Shown: positions 15,104 through 26,061 of the stretch, piece by piece | Position numbering within the stretch: position 1 is the first letter of the stretch | Layout of the letters: every line of letters begins with the position of its first letter | Assembly (NCBI GenBank): GCA_020353535.1 | Contig: CP070696.1 | Span: forward strand, 2,951,598 to 3,015,597 | Length of the DNA: 64,000 nt | Source: Spirochaetaceae bacterium | GTDB lineage: Bacteria > Spirochaetota > Spirochaetia > SZUA-6 > DRHE01 | Reading direction: 5' to 3' | Notes under the pieces: model-generated | Databases searched by the model: none | What the model was told of the DNA's origin: nothing | The model's input: only the letters and a program-made list of their open reading frames with translations | Program-made: the position numbers and the translations under genes

Positions 15104-16525
15104 TTATACCTCTCCGTCGTCGAAAACGATGGTAGCCCCGCCCACGTCGATCACGTCGCCGGGCTCGAGCACCTTGGTCTTCACCGGCTGGTTGTTGACG
15201 GTCAGGTCACCGGAACCCACGACCGTGTAGGCCTTGCTCTTGGCATCGTAGATCACGGTGGCGTGCTGTTCCTTGACGCTCGGATTACCCACGATGGTCA
15301 GGTCCGCATTGCGGCTGCCCCCGATCACGGTCTTGGCCGAGCTCAGAGGCATCACCCGGGTTTGAGCCCTGCCCACCCGCGTCTTCAGGACCTCGAGGGT
15401 CGCCGGGCCCCTCTTCTTCTCGAACTTCAGCAGAGAGATCAGCCACAACAGCACAAAGGCCAGCACGAAGGGGATGATCAGTAGCACACCGATCTTGGCC
15501 ATGGGAAGCCCGAAGACCGTGCTGGAAAAGTAGAAGCGGGTGGCCTGCTGGGACTGACCGCTTTGCTCAACCTGTACCCGCACAAACTTCTTCTCCGCGG
15601 GGGCCATAGTGGCTCGGTAGCCGATCAGGTATTCTCCGGCCACCTGTTCGTGGATGCGCTGATATACCCGGGCCAGCTCCTCCTGACTGCGAGCATCGAA
15701 CACGGTTCCGCCGGTTTCCACGGCTATCGCCTCCAGGTTGGGATCCTTCTGGTCGGCGAAGTTCACGGCGTACACCGAGATCCCCACCTCCTGACAGGCC
15801 TGGATCGGCTCGGTGTATCGATAGATCTTATCGCCGAACTCGGGATGGGGATTTCCCGCGTGCTGGAGGTACGGATAGTTCTCCCCGTCGGAGAGGATCA
15901 CTATGGCTCTACGGCCTCCGATGCCCTCGAAATCCTCGACCGCCAGGGTAAGGGAGGCGTACAGTTCGGTATAGGCCTGCTCCGAATCCGGCCGTTCGAT
16001 TCCCTCGAGAAAGCCCACGACCAGGCTCTTGTCACCGGAGGGTTCGGCCAGGAGAGTGTAGGAGGTGTTGTAGGAGCCCAGGCCGACGGTGTCCTTGGGT
16101 TGGGTCATGCTGCCTAGAAAGGTGCGGACCGCGTTTTTGGCATGGGTGATGCGCATGCGGCTGGTATCTTCGGTGGTGCGTCCCGCCATGGTATCGTACA
16201 TGCTCCCCGAGTTGTCCAGGAGCAGGAGAAAGGTGATCCCCTCGGCCGAAGCTGCCCGGGGCTTGAACTCGCTCAGACCTTCGATCCTTTCGAATTCTTT
16301 CCCATCTGGAGATTCGAAGATGGTAAAGCTGTCCGTTCCCAATCCCTGCACCGGTATCCCCAGATCATCGGTCACGCTCACGTACAGACGGACGGTTTGG
16401 CTGAGAAGCAGCCGGGAGGCGTCGATCTGGGATAGCCTCACGTTGTAGCCGAAGGCGGCGGCGGTCACGAACGACAAAACAAACAGCAACGCCGGCATAG
16501 ATATGATCCTTGTCTTCATCTTCAC
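15104..16525 (-). CDS. VWA-transmembrane-FHA protein
   Basis: The 473-residue protein has an N-terminal signal or anchor (ISMPALLFVLSFVTAAAFGY). A von Willebrand A domain with a complete MIDAS motif follows (LLLLDNSGSMYD near residue 100, then the Thr and Asp loops ending AIVILSDGENYP). A transmembrane helix (about 340-365, GVLLIIPFVLAFVLLWLISL) leads to a C-terminal FHA domain (about 378-470; GGSRNADLTI and PSVKEQHATV). The VWA part would be periplasmic and the phosphothreonine-binding FHA part cytoplasmic, giving a signal-coupled adhesion or scaffold module. Last gene of the leftward kinase operon, 7 bases after the membrane FHA gene. Confidence 0.9.
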   Translation of the reverse strand: MKMKTRIISMPALLFVLSFVTAAAFGYNVRLSQIDASRLLLSQTVRLYVSVTDDLGIPVQGLGTDSFTIFESPDGKEFERIEGLSEFKPRAASAEGITFLLLLDNSGSMYDTMAGRTTEDTSRMRITHAKNAVRTFLGSMTQPKDTVGLGSYNTSYTLLAEPSGDKSLVVGFLEGIERPDSEQAYTELYASLTLAVEDFEGIGGRRAIVILSDGENYPYLQHAGNPHPEFGDKIYRYTEPIQACQEVGISVYAVNFADQKDPNLEAIAVETGGTVFDARSQEELARVYQRIHEQVAGEYLIGYRATMAPAEKKFVRVQVEQSGQSQQATRFYFSSTVFGLPMAKIGVLLIIPFVLAFVLLWLISLLKFEKKRGPATLEVLKTRVGRAQTRVMPLSSAKTVIGGSRNADLTIVGNPSVKEQHATVIYDAKSKAYTVVGSGDLTVNNQPVKTKVLEPGDVIDVGGATIVFDDGEV

Positions 16526-16532
16526 TTCCCCC

Positions 16533-17429
16533 CTACTCGTAGCTGTAGAACAGCTTGGCCGAACCGATCTTCAGGACATCCTCGTACTTGAGACGGTGCT
16601 CCTTGACCGGTCTGTCGTTTACCAGGACCGGGTATTTCGGTTCCAGATTGGTCAGCAGCGCTTCGCCCTTGCGGAAGCGAATTTGCACCTGGCGATCCGC
16701 CAGCTTCTCGTACGGCTCCAGGGTGATTTGGTTGCGCCTGGCCCGGCCTATGCGTATGCGAGCCTCGTTGAGGATGAACTCCTTGCCCTTCAAGCGGCCG
16801 TTCAGCACCCTTAGGGTGCCGAAGGCCATGCTGCGCTCGATGATCCCGTAGAACAGGCCAATTGCCAGACCCAGAACGACCAGACCTATAAGCCGGAATG
16901 GAAGGAATTCAGGCAGATACAGCCGGGAGTACTCCAGAGCGAAGCCCCCGATCAGTCCTCCGATCAGCCCTCCGATCAGGCCGATGCCCAGCTTCTTTGC
17001 GGATGCGGCCCGGATGCCTTCGGCCGCCCCAACGAAGATCCCCAGAAAAGCCCAGCCTATGGCTCGGGCGATGGGCAGCCCAACGGTCTGGAAACTACGG
17101 TAGGAGTTCAGGAAAAGTCCGCCAATCAGGAACAGCACCGCCTGTCCGACCAGAAGACCGATGATTCCCCCGATTAGGCCGACGAGCGCTCCGACGACCA
17201 TGCCTACCAGGATCCTGCTCCCGACCCGGGCGAAGATCCCCGCTGCGGAACCGAAGAAGGCGCCCATAAGCAGGCCCACCGCCGCGCCCAGGACCGCAAC
17301 AAAGATCAGATAGGAGGGAAAGCGGGCTTGAATCCCTACGATCAGCTCGGTCAGCGGCCAGGCCGCCAATCCGCCCAATATTCCAAGACACAGCAGGATC
17401 ACTCTTCGTAGTCCTGTAGTCATAGGCAC
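16533..17429 (-). CDS. Glycine-rich polytopic membrane protein with C-terminal FHA domain
   Basis: Of the 298 residues, the first about 205 form several glycine-rich hydrophobic segments. They include repeated GLIGG units (IGLIGGLIGGLIGG near residue 150) and AVGLLMGAFFGSAAG, a glycine-zipper-like pattern. The C-terminal about 90 residues form an FHA domain (RIRIGRARRNQITLE near 225, DRQVQIRF, LVNDRPVKEHRLKYEDVLKIG). The usual FHA SxxH motif is replaced by ADRQV, so phosphothreonine binding is uncertain. It lies between the kinase and the VWA-FHA gene. Function unknown; a membrane scaffold controlled by the kinase is a plausible inference. Confidence 0.85.
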   Translation of the reverse strand: MPMTTGLRRVILLCLGILGGLAAWPLTELIVGIQARFPSYLIFVAVLGAAVGLLMGAFFGSAAGIFARVGSRILVGMVVGALVGLIGGIIGLLVGQAVLFLIGGLFLNSYRSFQTVGLPIARAIGWAFLGIFVGAAEGIRAASAKKLGIGLIGGLIGGLIGGFALEYSRLYLPEFLPFRLIGLVVLGLAIGLFYGIIERSMAFGTLRVLNGRLKGKEFILNEARIRIGRARRNQITLEPYEKLADRQVQIRFRKGEALLTNLEPKYPVLVNDRPVKEHRLKYEDVLKIGSAKLFYSYE

Positions 17430-17444: not shown

Positions 17445-19338
<1,894 letters not shown>

Positions 19339-19346
<8 letters not shown>

Positions 19347-20265
19347 CGATCAGCTCTCGAAATGCCTCCCTGTCCAACTCCCGAATATCCCGATCCAGAT
19401 CGATCTGTCCCCCCGCCGGCAGTACGGCCACCACATAACGATCCGGATCGTGAATCTGTACGTAGCGCTCGTCGGAGCGAAGGTTGTAGCTTCCGTGGAC
19501 CGGGCGGTGTCCGCCGAAATGGTAGGCGGCCATGGCAGCCTCCGGGCCCAGGTAGTGCTCCAGCATCTGCTGAACGCTTCCCGGCTCCGCTTCGCCGTTG
19601 TCCGTCCAGGTCAGGCCGTACACCACCTGCGGCAGCCGGCGGTATTCTATGAGCTCATGCTTGGGGATGAACCAGGCCGGCTCGGCGTGGGAAGCCAAAA
19701 AGTTACCGCCCACGGCCAGAATGGGGAAGCTCTTCTCGAATTCGGCGTAGCTGTTGAGGATCTCCTCCCCGTAGAAGTGCTCCATGTAGATCCGCACCAT
19801 GAGCCCTTCGTTGGCGAATTTGAGGAAGGGATAGTTGCCTCCGCCCTGTTCGTTGGCGATGTTTTCGTGGTTGCCCTTGAGGAAGTGGAAGTGGTTCGGG
19901 AACTGCCTTTTGAGGGCCATTACCATCTCCATCACTCCGAGGCTCTCCCTCATCTCCTCATCCATGTGAATGTGTTTCCGATATCCGCCCTTGAACTCCT
20001 CCAAGGCCGCCTGCCAGCGCACAGCAGCCCTGCCTTCCGCGTGAAATCCGTCGCCCAGGCAGAGAAGCTGCAGCCTGCCGGCTGCCAATCGATCCACGGC
20101 GGCGACGCCCTGCTCGTCCTTGGAGGAGAGTACCGCCAAAACGAGCTCCATGCGAGCATGCAGATCCGGCACCACCACGGTCGGGATTTCCGGATCCAGG
20201 TACAACAGGCCACCGGGACGATCCTCCCTGTCCCGGGGCCGGATCTCCTCCGCTTCGCTGTCCAA
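19339..20265 (-). CDS. Metallophosphatase-like protein (PPP-type, degenerate motifs)
   Basis: The 308 residues given show a calcineurin-like phosphoesterase pattern with variant motifs. TVVVPDLHARME replaces GDxHG, LCLGDGFHAEGR replaces GDxxDRG, and FLKGNHENIAN keeps GNHE; ASHAEPAWF and FGGHRPVHGSY supply later His ligands. By position it should reverse the adjacent kinase. The start is uncertain. TTG at 20265 is the first ordinary start codon, but coding-like sequence continues upstream in frame to about 20379-20409 with no ATG, GTG or TTG. A CTG at 20379, 10 bases after GGAG, would give 346 residues. Confidence 0.75.
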
Positions 20266-20386
20266 GACCTGGACGGCAGCCAGGATTTCCTCCTGAAGCT
20301 CCGTGGATTCCGGAGGTCCAGTGCGGCCGTAGATTCGCCTCAGCTTGCTGATAAGGTCGGTTGTTGTTGAGGGTTCCAGTTTTAGT

Positions 20387-20917
20387 TTACTCCAAATCGA
20401 GGTCCTTGTTCACCTCGACGAATCCTTCCGCCAGGATCATGGTCGCCTTGGTGATCTGTTCCTCCTGCTCCTCCGGCTCCAGGTCCCCCGTGGTTACGGC
20501 GATCTTGAAAATCGGGGAGGAGCTCTGGATGGGTCCGGGAGAGAAGCGCACGGGCTCGCCCACCTGTACGTCGCTCGCCAGCTGGGAGTTCTCCTTGCTG
20601 GCCGTTTCCGGCACATCCTGGCGCAGACCGATGCTGGCGTACTGGACTGTGCGTCCCTCCTCTATGACGGGGCCGATGTTCAGCAGTGACCCTGAGTAGG
20701 TCATTGCCAGGCAGCCTTGCTCGTCATCCTGATCGAGCTCCTCGACCTCGGCCATGTTCATCTCGGCCAGCTGGTTTTCGAACAGCTCCTTCTTGTCCAG
20801 CCAGCCTCTGGCAATCATCTCCACAGATTCCTCGTTGTCCGGCAAGCCTGAGGACTTGGTGATCTGTCGAATATGATCCTGTACTTCCGCGGGAATTTGA
20901 TCCAGGTACTCGCCCAT
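20387..20917 (-). CDS. Conserved unknown protein, paralogue of the HU-fused protein at 21389
   Basis: The 176-residue product aligns along its whole length with residues 1-175 of the protein at 21389-22243. Shared blocks are ITxSSGLPDxEES, TYSGSLLNIG versus SYSGSLISLG, QYASIGLRxDVP and EEQxxxIxxATxxLxxGFV. No enzymatic motif is visible and it has no membrane segment. It is first in the leftward phosphatase-kinase-FHA operon. I chose ATG at 20917 because GAGGAGGAA precedes it directly; a longer frame begins at 20968. A -10 box TATACT reads on the minus strand at about 20956-20951. Function unknown. Confidence 0.85.
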   Translation of the reverse strand: MGEYLDQIPAEVQDHIRQITKSSGLPDNEESVEMIARGWLDKKELFENQLAEMNMAEVEELDQDDEQGCLAMTYSGSLLNIGPVIEEGRTVQYASIGLRQDVPETASKENSQLASDVQVGEPVRFSPGPIQSSSPIFKIAVTTGDLEPEEQEEQITKATMILAEGFVEVNKDLDLE

Positions 20918-21024
20918 GGGTTCCTCCTCGTGCTCTAGTGTTGCTAATAGTATAACCCACCTTTTCAAGTTTTTCCCTTGTTTCTTTGCCGGGATTGAGT
21001 AGACTTATATCAGGAGGATGAACT

Positions 21025-21396
21025 ATGGAGCCGGATAATCTTCCGCCGGAGGTGTATCTGGAAATCCTGAATGGTGATCGGGAGGGGGAAATGTTTCCCA
21101 TCACCCGCAAGACCGTCACCATCGGACGGGACGCCCAATGCGACCTCCATCTTGCCGATCCCTACGTTTCCCGAAAGCACTCCCAGATCGTGTTCCGGGG
21201 TGATCACTTCACCATGATGGATCTGGGCAGCCTGAACAAAACCCGGGTCAAGGAGAAGGAGTACATTCAGAAGAACCTCAAGGATGGCTATCTGATCACC
21301 CTGGGAAAGACGCAGCTGCGTTTCCTCTGGCCGAACGCCAAGGCCTGGCTGGCGGAGCACGGAATCGAGGAGGAACAGGAGGCTGCTGATGAGTGA
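21025..21396 (+). CDS. FHA domain protein
   Basis: The 123-residue protein is almost entirely one forkhead-associated domain. All canonical residues are present: TIGRDAQCDLHL, YVSRKHSQIVF and DLGSLNKTRVKEK. It should bind phosphothreonine peptides in the cytoplasm. It begins 107 bases from the oppositely oriented conserved-protein gene, has a strong RBS (AGGAGG at 21012-21017), and overlaps the HU-fusion gene by 8 bases, which indicates coupled translation. A natural substrate or partner of the kinase at 17445-19346. Confidence 0.93.
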   Translation: MEPDNLPPEVYLEILNGDREGEMFPITRKTVTIGRDAQCDLHLADPYVSRKHSQIVFRGDHFTMMDLGSLNKTRVKEKEYIQKNLKDGYLITLGKTQLRFLWPNAKAWLAEHGIEEEQEAADE

Positions 21397-22243
21397 TGAG
21401 ATTCGAGAGCTCTCGGCCACGGTCCGCTCCCACCTCAAGAAGATCACCCGCAGCTCGGGCCTTCCCGATACCGAGGAGTCCTTCCAAAAGATGGTTGCGG
21501 TCTGGTTGGAGAAGAAGAAGATGTTCGAGGGGCAGATCCGGGCTCTGGACATGGAGGAAGTAGATTCCTTTTCCAAGGACGATCCGCGAGGAGCGCTGCT
21601 TCTGTCCTACTCAGGTTCGCTGATCAGCCTGGGAACCCTTTCTCCCGGTGGTAGACGGGTGGAGTACGCCAGCATCTCTCTGCGTGCCGATGTGCCCCAC
21701 CTGGCGGTCACGGAGGGAAGCGCATTGGCTGCGGACATACGCATCGACAGTGAGGCAGAGTTCTCAAGCGGAAAGGTACGCAGCACCTCCAGCCTTCTGA
21801 AGATCGCCGTCTGCGGGACTGAGGTGAGCCCGGAGGAGCAGGAGAAGCGCATCCGGGAAGCTACGATCTTTCTGACCAACGGCTTCGTCAAGATCAACAG
21901 GACCGTTCTCTCTACGGGGGCGGATCTGCCCGATCAGTTCACCAGCCAGGCGATCATCGCCTACCTGGCCAGGAAAAATGGGCTGACTCAGAAACAGGCC
22001 CGCCAGATCACCAGCGACTATCTGACCATGATCGAATCGGGCATGATCCTGGGGGAGCGGGTGCCGCTGGGAAAGATCGGTCGTTTGTTTCTCAAGAAGC
22101 GCCCCCCCCGCAAAGCTCGGGTGGTGGTCAATCCGGCCACGGGTAAGGAGATCACCGTTCCCGCCCGTCCGGAGGAGGCGGTTCCCAAGATCTCCTTCAG
22201 CCGTTCCATGAAAGAGCGAGCTCGCCAGGTCGAGATGGGATAG
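21389..22243 (+). CDS. Conserved unknown domain fused to an HU/IHF-like DNA-binding domain
   Basis: Of 284 residues, the first about 175 are paralogous to the protein at 20387-20917. The C-terminal about 95 residues resemble HU: a two-helix start (AIIAYLARKNGLTQKQARQI), GERVPLGKIGRLFLKKRP in the place of HU's GFGTF segment, and NPATGKEITVPARPEEAVP matching the HU arm and Pro loop. DNA binding is therefore likely. Overlap with the FHA gene suggests that a phospho-reader and a nucleoid-type protein are made together. This combination, next to a kinase and phosphatase, suggests phosphorylation-linked control of chromosome structure or transcription; that is inference. Confidence 0.88.
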   Translation: MSDEIRELSATVRSHLKKITRSSGLPDTEESFQKMVAVWLEKKKMFEGQIRALDMEEVDSFSKDDPRGALLLSYSGSLISLGTLSPGGRRVEYASISLRADVPHLAVTEGSALAADIRIDSEAEFSSGKVRSTSSLLKIAVCGTEVSPEEQEKRIREATIFLTNGFVKINRTVLSTGADLPDQFTSQAIIAYLARKNGLTQKQARQITSDYLTMIESGMILGERVPLGKIGRLFLKKRPPRKARVVVNPATGKEITVPARPEEAVPKISFSRSMKERARQVEMG

Positions 22244-23460: not shown

Positions 23461-23685
23461 GTGGCCAGAGGAAAGCCGGAAATCGATTCGGAACGCTGCA
23501 AGGGATGCGGTCTTTGTGTGAAGGCCTGTCCCGAAGCCATTCTTGAACTGGCGGACGCCTTCAACAACAAGGGTCACCACTACGCCGTCTGCGCGAGTCC
23601 CGAACGCTGCACCGCCTGCATGTTCTGCGCCATCATCTGTCCCGATACTGCCATCGAAATCTGGCGCTTCGCCAAGGCCGGTTGA
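23461..23685 (+). CDS. korD: 2-oxoacid:ferredoxin oxidoreductase, ferredoxin-like delta subunit
   Basis: The 74-residue 2[4Fe-4S] ferredoxin has both clusters intact: CKGCGLCVKACP and CTACMFCAIICP. It relays electrons from the catalytic alpha-beta subunits to ferredoxin. GTG start at 23461, preceded by the purine-rich GGGGGGAG. First of four linked genes in the order delta-alpha-beta-gamma, typical of KorDABC/VorDABC complexes. The gene symbol is by family; the oxoacid is not certain. Confidence 0.9.
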   Translation: MARGKPEIDSERCKGCGLCVKACPEAILELADAFNNKGHHYAVCASPERCTACMFCAIICPDTAIEIWRFAKAG

Positions 23686-23696
23686 AGGAGGATCGT

Positions 23697-24752
23697 GTGG
23701 CCGACGCCTTATTGATGCGTGGAAACGAGGCGGTAGCAGAAGCTGCAATCATCGCCGGCTGCCGCTACTACTTCGCCTACCCCATCACTCCCCAGAACGA
23801 AATCGCAGCCTATATGGCCATGCGCATGCCGGAGGTCGGCGGGACATTCCTGCAGGCGGAGAGCGAGATCGCTTCGATCAACATGGTTTTGGGCGCGGCC
23901 GCGGCCGGGGGCAGGACGATGACCTCCTCCAGCTCTCCGGGAATCAGCCTCAAGCAGGAGGGCTTGTCCTATCTTGCGGGGACGGAGCTGCCCGCTGTGG
24001 TGGTGAACATGATGAGGGGCGGACCGGGTCTGGGCAACATAGCCGGGGCTCAAGGTGATTATTTCCAGGCCACCAAGGGAGGCGGCCACGGCGACTATCG
24101 CATGATCGTCCTGGCCCCCGCCTCTGTACAGGAACTGGCAGATCTGACTGTCACCGCCTTTGACCTCTCCGACCGGTACCGTATCGTCACCATGATATTG
24201 GGGGATGGCTATCTGGGTCAAATGTCCGAATCCCTCGTACTGCCCGAGCCTTCTAAGAAAAAATTCGATAAATCCTCCTGGATTCTCGACGGGGCGAAGG
24301 GCAGAAAATCCCGCATGATCGCCTCGCTTCGACTCAGCCCGGAGGACGGGGTGGAGCAAATCAACCTCCGGCTTCAGGACAAGTATCGTAAGATCGAAGC
24401 CTCTGAGATCCGCTTCGAGTGCTTCCAATGCCAGGATGCCGAGTTCCTCCTTGTAGCCTTCGGGCTGGCCGCCCGGGTGTGCAAGGCCGCGGTCAATCAG
24501 CTGCGAGCCGAAGGCTTGAGGGTGGGCCTGTTTCGCCCGATCACGCTGTGGCCCTTTCCCTCAGGGCAGCTGCTGCAACAGGCGGGCCGGACGAAGAAGG
24601 TGCTGGTCGTTGAGATGAATGCCGGCCAGATGCTGGAGGATGTCCGCCTGGCCCTGGGGGACAAGGTTCCGATCGAGTTCTACGGACGTATGGGAGCGAT
24701 GCTCGTAGAGGTGGAAGAGATTGTCAGAAGGATAAAGAGCCATGAGAAGTGA
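23697..24752 (+). CDS. korA: 2-oxoacid:ferredoxin oxidoreductase, alpha subunit
   Basis: The 351-residue subunit contains the pyrimidine-binding fold of TPP enzymes ([51 protein letters not shown]) and the conserved [25 protein letters not shown]-type block. The length fits KorA/VorB, not the longer fused PorA. GTG at 23697 was chosen because AAGGAGG (23685-23691) sits 5 bases before it; a TTG at 23682 is possible. It converts 2-oxoglutarate or branched 2-oxoacids to acyl-CoA together with KorB. Confidence 0.92.
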
Positions 24753-25497
24753 TGTAGCGGAAGCCAAACGGGTGTTCTCTAAACCCGAATCTCTAGCCGA
24801 TGTTCCTACCCACTACTGTCCGGGCTGCGGGCACGGGATCATCCACAGGCTTATGGCCCAGATCATCGATGAGCTGGGCATCCGGGAACGGACGATCGTG
24901 ATAGCGCCGGTGGGATGCGCGGTTCTGATCTACAACTATTTCAAAACCGACAGTCTGGAAGCCGCCCACGGCCGTGCTCCCGCCGTTGCTACCGGGATAA
25001 AACGGGTTCTTCCCGATCGAGTGGTGATCTCCTACCAGGGAGACGGGGACCTGCTGGCCATCGGCACCGCCGAGACGGTGCATACGGCCAACCGGGGAGA
25101 GAACATCACCATCCTGTTCGTCAACAACGCCATCTACGGCATGACCGGAGGGCAGATGGCCCCGACCTCGCTGGCGGGACAGAAGACGAAGACCTCTCCC
25201 TACGGCCGCAATCCGGCGGATGCGGGAATGCCGATTCGGGCCTGCGAGCTCCTCAACACACTGGAGGCGCCCGTGTTCATCGAACGCTGCTCGGTGCACG
25301 ACGTGCCCCACATCCTCAAGGCCAAAAGAGCCACGAAGAAGGCGATCGAGAATCAGGTGAAGGGACGGGGCTTCTCCTTCGTCGAGTTTCTCTCCATGTG
25401 TCCGACGAACTGGGGCATGAGCTCCCAGGCGGCGGCGGACTGGGTCGGCAGTGAGATGGTAGCCTATTATCCCCTTGGAAATTTCCGGGACAGGTAG
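24742..25497 (+). CDS. korB: 2-oxoacid:ferredoxin oxidoreductase, beta subunit
   Basis: The 251-residue subunit binds TPP and Mg: [13 protein letters not shown] at residues 22-34 and the [17 protein letters not shown] motif, with GDGD followed by [17 protein letters not shown]. It overlaps the alpha gene by 11 bases. TPP, metal and substrate contacts are all present, so the enzyme should be active. Length and the GGQMAPTS motif match KorB-type subunits. Confidence 0.93.
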
Positions 25498-25512
25498 AAG
25501 GAGAGTCGAGCG

Positions 25513-26061
25513 ATGCGGGAAGAGATCATCTTCGCCGGTTTCGGCGGTCAGGGCATCATCCTCTCCGGCACGATCGTCTGCCTGGCGGCTATGAAGGAGG
25601 GGAAAAAGGTCACCCACATTCCCTCCTACGGTGCTGAGATGCGCGGCGGTACGGCCAATTGCTCCGTGGTCATCAGCGACAAGGAGATCGCCTCCCCCCT
25701 GGTAGCGCACCCTTCGGTATGCGTGGTAATGAACAAGCCCTCCCTGATCAAGTTCGAAGCGAAGGTCAAGGCTGAGGGAATCCTGCTTTACAATAGCTCC
25801 CTGATCGACATCGAGCCCTCCCGCGGGGATATCCGCTGCATCCCGGTGCCGGCCAACGAGATCGCCGAACAGGAGGGCAGTGCCCGTTCGGCCAACATGG
25901 TCATGCTCGGTCTGCTGGCCAAGCTAAAGCCCGAGGTCGCGGCTCTGGATTCCATCCAGGCGAGTCTGGATGAGGCCGTCTCTGCCCGGCACAGGAGCCT
26001 CAATGAGATCAATAAGCGCTGCCTGGATCGGGGATTTGCCCTCAACGGCGAGGCGAACTAG
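25513..26061 (+). CDS. korC: 2-oxoacid:ferredoxin oxidoreductase, gamma subunit
   Basis: The 182-residue gamma domain starts EEIIFAGFGGQGIILSG, the usual KorC/PorC opening, and keeps THIPSYGAEMRGGTANCSVVISD, a family signature near residue 35. It completes the four-subunit complex. The gene ends only 12 bases before the convergent isomerase gene, so termination must occur within or beyond that gene. Confidence 0.93.
   Translation: MREEIIFAGFGGQGIILSGTIVCLAAMKEGKKVTHIPSYGAEMRGGTANCSVVISDKEIASPLVAHPSVCVVMNKPSLIKFEAKVKAEGILLYNSSLIDIEPSRGDIRCIPVPANEIAEQEGSARSANMVMLGLLAKLKPEVAALDSIQASLDEAVSARHRSLNEINKRCLDRGFALNGEAN

Follow-up and report, generated by a model that had tools for sequence, protein, structure and literature searches.

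The window, by which we mean the whole 64,000-nucleotide stretch of Spirochaetaceae bacterium contig CP070696.1 that was analysed, carries an ancient protein domain of about 175 amino acids in two forms: a stand-alone acidic protein (the short paralog) and a protein in which the same domain is fused to HU (the long paralog). The surroundings of this pair are more informative than the pair alone. Since the linkage of the short gene to a Ser/Thr kinase operon is invariant, the phospho-signalling context is at least as important as the pairing itself. The reading that we favour, with a probability of roughly 0.5, is that a kinase/phosphatase system has the long protein as its DNA-bound target or output, with the short protein as the soluble, acidic counterpart of the long one, the whole representing a spirochaete-specific form of Ser/Thr phospho-signalling.

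The first-pass annotation had placed the two open reading frames at 20387-20917 on the reverse strand and 21389-22243 on the forward strand, and both are present there. The former encodes a protein of 176 amino acids (pI 4.1) that consists of the shared N domain only and is gene 1 of the kinase operon; the latter encodes 284 amino acids, comprising the shared N domain (residues 1 to about 175) and an HU/IHF domain (residues 185-277). The proposed alignment over about 175 residues was reproduced as a gapless match of 173 residues, with 43% identity, 69% similarity and E=9e-56. Likewise, the HU-like part had been assigned to the second protein only, and PF00216 is indeed found in the long protein while the short one is without any Pfam match. 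Apart from these two, no third paralog of the shared domain was found in the same genome. The ATG of the short gene at 20917 is preceded by a good Shine-Dalgarno sequence (GAGGAGG) and was therefore preferred over an upstream TTG at 20968.

The two genes do belong to different, divergent operons, as had been claimed, but they do not directly flank the divergent promoter: in this genus a gene for a soluble FHA protein (21025-21396 in the window, forward strand) intervenes. The divergent gap (20918-21024) therefore separates the short gene from an FHA-long operon. It contains -10-like elements on both strands that are conserved within the genus; a sigma-70 scan and an inverted-repeat search of the gap were both without a match. 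In relatives, direct divergence of the short and long genes is the usual state (40 loci, median ORF gap 125 bp).

The C-terminal region of the long protein is a true HU/IHF domain (21941-22219, forward strand), predicted from its sequence to bind DNA. The profile search that had been suggested as a check gave a clear HU match (PF00216 on residues 185-277, E=2.2e-13, 50.7 bits against a cut-off of 22.4), and the same answer came from a phmmer search of the PDB, in which the matches were HU/IHF chains, and from Foldseek with the AF2 model of the long protein (pLDDT 87.8), which returned HU/IHF/Hbb structures with E down to 1.7e-5 and target-normalised TM of 0.7-0.8, the top matches all being HU/IHF. 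These C-terminal 93 residues thus share with the HU/IHF family its sequence profile, its fold and its NPxTG arm motif, which is kept in the window protein and well conserved among 70 long forms (N248 77%, P249 81%, T251 97%, G252 96%). The long protein differs from the family in its extra 175-aa N-terminal domain, in a beta-arm that has about three extra residues on each strand (as aligned by phmmer with S. aureus HU in the PDB) and in having IG at the body turn where FG is usual. Embedding of HU within a larger protein is also seen in the HU-CCDC81 and HU-HIG clades (PF18175, PF18291), from which the long protein differs in its partner domain. Membership of HU-CCDC81 was considered and rejected (PF18175 E=0.22, 11.9 bits, far under the cut-off of 35). 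The host genome has one further HU gene, which is stand-alone. At L117, L118, L119, L120 and L121 the HU gene stands alone and is of the subtype seen in the HU part of the long protein; some of these genes encode a Lys/Ala-rich N-terminal tail, and three of the genomes concerned (G018, G008 and G013) gave no N-domain match.

The shared domain had no relative in the libraries that we searched. It had no Pfam or NCBIfam match in either form, and a profile built from 22 sequences gave only a chance match to the PDB (E 0.23). The AF2 model of the short protein is confident (pLDDT 88.2, pTM 0.84) and has seven or eight strands, around which lie helices 10-22, 29-52 and 148-172. Foldseek searches with the N domain against PDB and viral libraries gave nothing below E=0.001 (best E 0.21 and 0.034, respectively) and a query-normalised TM of at most 0.30, so that the modelled domain is possibly a new fold, as judged against PDB and viral structures. 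Invariant or nearly invariant residues are W39, K42, S75, S77, R89, Y93, R99, D101, V102, P103, S134 and N170, with the SGS segment (75-77) and the RxDVP loop (99-103) among the conserved segments. In the model of the long protein, residues 99-102 are the sole segment under pLDDT 50. A loop that is conserved yet poorly placed in the model is what might be expected of a partner- or ligand-binding element.

The domain also occurs in a third architecture, in which it is followed by a helical C-terminal part of about 115 aa that ends in YKWYESEKKNFDIGLMKALEEIP and belongs to no Pfam family. These proteins form one clade (L113:1886-2791, L114:1332-2240, L126:1693-2592, L109, L110, L111 and L112). 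At L128 a gene of this architecture lies divergent from another Ser/Thr kinase gene. Fusion to a different helical part, together with the strong conservation of polar residues in both the short and long forms, would suit a domain that binds a small ligand or second messenger in a pocket formed by W39, K42, SGS 75-77, R89, Y93, RxDVP 99-103, S134 and N170, with the kinase linkage being secondary. However, neither the PDB profile search nor Foldseek revealed a structural or sequence relative among ligand-binding domains, and we regard this explanation as quite improbable.

We return to the kinase system, which we take to be the more informative context. Clustering of the neighbouring genes, together with inspection of every locus, gave a conserved operon order of short gene, calcineurin-like phosphatase, Ser/Thr kinase, membrane-FHA and VWA-FHA, and in the window all five genes lie on the reverse strand. 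The second (19339-20376) encodes a calcineurin-like (PPP-type) phosphoesterase (Metallophos PF00149, E=1.4e-4) with D-x-H, GD and GNHE motifs, and is conserved in relatives. Its start codon is uncertain: the frame is open upstream of the first TTG (window 20265-20379) and the upstream part is conserved in a same-genus relative, so a CTG start near 20379 is possible and automatic annotation may truncate the gene. The third (17445-19346) encodes a membrane Ser/Thr protein kinase (Pkinase E=7.6e-55) with HRDMKPGN and DFG intact, one transmembrane segment at 305-330 and an extracytoplasmic C-terminal part. The fourth (16533-17429) specifies a polytopic membrane protein with a C-terminal FHA domain, the window copy of which is without the usual phospho-binding Ser/His, and the fifth (15104-16525) a protein with a signal-like segment, an extracytoplasmic VWA domain, a transmembrane segment and a cytoplasmic FHA domain. 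Physical association of the last two is supported by their fusion at L136 (11655-14129) into one 824-aa protein. On the other side of the gap, the soluble FHA protein has an intact GR/SxxH/N-T phosphothreonine-binding pattern, and the last 8 bp of its gene are shared with the beginning of the long gene. Neither the short nor the long protein has transmembrane segments. Motifs for a kinase (HRD/DFG), a phosphatase (GNHE) and an FHA reader (GR/SxxH) are therefore present alongside the pair in conserved linkage, and the corresponding activities are predicted.

Two other assignments of the locus were tried and rejected. PADLOC gave only generic kinase matches for the Ser/Thr kinase and nothing for the other genes, which lends no support to a defence system, and plasmid and phage searches with the locus proteins gave no match, hence no sign of a mobile element. 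Elsewhere in the window, a set of genes resembling a 2-oxoacid:ferredoxin oxidoreductase (ferredoxin, alpha, beta and gamma; 23461-26061, judged from ORF translations) lies downstream of a mechanosensitive channel gene.

We scanned 84,980 species genomes for motifs taken from long forms only, a search that distant relatives in other phyla may escape, and obtained 73 loci, all of them labelled as spirochaete and including Alkalispirochaeta alkalica, Breznakiella homolactica and Candidatus Marispirochaeta associata. Whole-genome searches gave matches in 64 of 148 relatives, some through HU only, and the N domain was found in 34 of 296 genomes of the phylum, families outside the class included. 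It was not found in the small genomes searched that we labelled, by inference, Treponema-like and Borrelia-like. The kinase gene lies downstream of the short gene at all 39 short loci for which the downstream sequence reaches 2.5 kb or more, and the phosphatase gene at 32 of these 39. Where 5.5 kb or more is available (31 loci), the membrane-FHA and VWA genes follow in every case. Because relatedness makes the genomes non-independent, these and the following counts of linkage and co-occurrence should not be read as probabilities. Short and long forms are kept together across Spirochaetia: the short form is present in 48 of 48 relatives carrying the long one, and is found without it in six genomes (the long form is thus missing in 6 of 54). 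At L135, L136 and L138, from three of these six genomes, the long gene is absent and the short gene still has its complete kinase operon. L138 (7193-8326), from genome G003 of the same family, retains the short operon and the divergent FHA gene as in the window with no adjoining long gene, and the long form seems to have been lost from this relative. The short gene is present in 50 of the 51 genomes that carry membrane-FHA; in the remaining one (G004) the contig breaks off within the phosphatase gene. A solitary short gene, without the operon beside it, was seen at L134 (genome G086).

In roughly a third of loci the long gene lies apart from the kinase operon; unlinked copies nevertheless remain co-resident with the short operon, as at L046/L106 and L047/L105 (long/short, same isolates). 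In one group of spirochaete MAGs (L046-L050) the long gene is followed, in the same direction, by genes for a LysM protein and a sigma-factor-like protein, and in L086-L101 it lies near c16/c10 genes. Such other contexts would be in keeping with an ordinary architectural HU variant, with an N domain added for structure or localisation and a kinase linkage left over from the duplication without functional coupling. Against this, the divergent position is preserved in many families and every genome that carries the long form retains the short one, and we consider the explanation improbable, if less so than a ligand-binding domain.

A maximum-likelihood tree of 130 N domains placed all 71 long forms in one clade (support 100/99) with the short forms outside, and the internal branching order is parallel in the two groups (e.g. 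L100+L107, L108, L092 and L058/L063). The simplest reading of these sequences is that the HU fusion arose once, early, and was then inherited jointly with the short form. The two forms have diverged markedly in charge. Short forms are strongly acidic (median pI 4.4, net -21), whereas long N domains are less so (pI 5.3, net -5) and the HU parts of long forms are mostly basic (pI 9.8, net +7). The positions that best separate the two forms are concentrated in the last helix (148-172), where long forms have R154, R156, F161, N164 and K168 and short forms T/S156, Q160, E/D164, D/E165 and E168; the mean charge of this helix is +0.9 in long forms (neutral to slightly basic) and -5.6 in short forms (acidic). 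This could reflect a heterotypic contact, mimicry of DNA by the short form, or no more than a difference in partners.

The first of these possibilities bears on the suggestion of the first-pass annotation that the short form modulates the DNA-bound form. In a fuller version of that scheme the two proteins would hetero-oligomerise through the shared domain, and the short one would titrate or remodel the HU-bound long protein, possibly at the divergent promoter of the pair itself. The unbroken co-occurrence of short with long, the 40 divergent loci and the acidic residues that mark the last helix of the short but not the long form are all compatible with it, as is the RxDVP loop, which is invariant and yet modelled with the lowest confidence in the long protein, a combination that might be expected of an interface segment. 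However, the promoter is without an inverted repeat, the short form is kept without the long one in six genomes, and the kinase is present at every one of the 39 short loci with sufficient sequence. In addition, over 26 complete loci, the evolutionary distances of the long and short proteins covary beyond the rest of the operon with a partial r of only about 0.1, which, because the trees are small, is weak evidence against exclusive long-short pairing. In the same comparison the long N domain covaries with the phosphatase (0.56) and the kinase (0.40), and the short protein with membrane-FHA (0.5-0.6). Overall, we consider the hetero-oligomer scheme rather unlikely, although it is the strongest of the three alternatives.

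The reading in which the kinase system signals to the long protein draws on the paralogy, the HU domain, the invariant short-kinase linkage, the 40 divergent pairs, the co-occurrence of the two forms, the well-supported long clade with its parallel branching order, the intact kinase motifs and the coupling of the FHA gene to the long gene. Against it, conserved linkage indicates a shared pathway and not a direct kinase-substrate relation, the long gene is often distant from the kinase operon and is missing from six genomes, the covariation from 26 loci is weak evidence, no invariant FHA-type phosphothreonine site was identified, and the membrane-FHA protein of the window departs from the usual phospho-binding residues. 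If correct, the kinase and VWA proteins would sense envelope or extracellular conditions, and the kinase and phosphatase would determine whether the shared domain, or a protein bound to it, is phosphorylated, the phosphothreonine being read by FHA domains. The phosphorylation state might then alter DNA binding or clustering of the HU dimer of the long protein on the chromosome, and so change nucleoid structure or transcription. The short protein would be an adaptor or antagonist on the membrane side that either pairs with the long protein or competes with it for a common partner.

There is a partial precedent in M. tuberculosis, where phosphorylation of HupB by a Ser/Thr protein kinase lowers DNA binding, according to the account of Gupta et al. 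(2014) given in PMC4754617. In the system proposed here, Ser/Thr kinase signalling would likewise act on an HU-type chromosome protein. To our knowledge, HupB of mycobacteria lacks an N domain of this kind, and its gene is not adjoined by a dedicated kinase/phosphatase/FHA/VWA operon. TerY-P triads consist of a VWA protein, a PP2C phosphatase and a Ser/Thr kinase, and the operon resembles them in combining VWA, phosphatase and kinase genes. It differs in having a calcineurin-like phosphatase, a VWA protein that is anchored in the membrane and carries an FHA domain, and a unique short protein encoded by its first gene; assignment to the TerY-P triads was rejected, the phosphatase gene matching Metallophos (PF00149) and not PP2C.

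We found no description of the locus, the domain or the kinase linkage in the searchable literature, a scope outside which most subscription papers lie, and within it the shared domain and its fixed kinase linkage appear to be undescribed. HU is usually viewed as a passive, abundant architectural protein. More tentatively than the main reading, and with the odds somewhat against it, we suggest that a domain of possibly new fold, seen so far only in Spirochaetota, may serve as a membrane-to-chromosome relay, such that the kinase acts on both its free and HU-fused forms and envelope signals directly remodel the nucleoid. The domain is conserved, occurs in numerous spirochaete genomes and has no name in current annotation pipelines. 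A dedicated HU fusion retained beside a kinase/phosphatase/FHA/VWA operon across a bacterial class offers a direct case in which signalling to chromosome structure can be tested.
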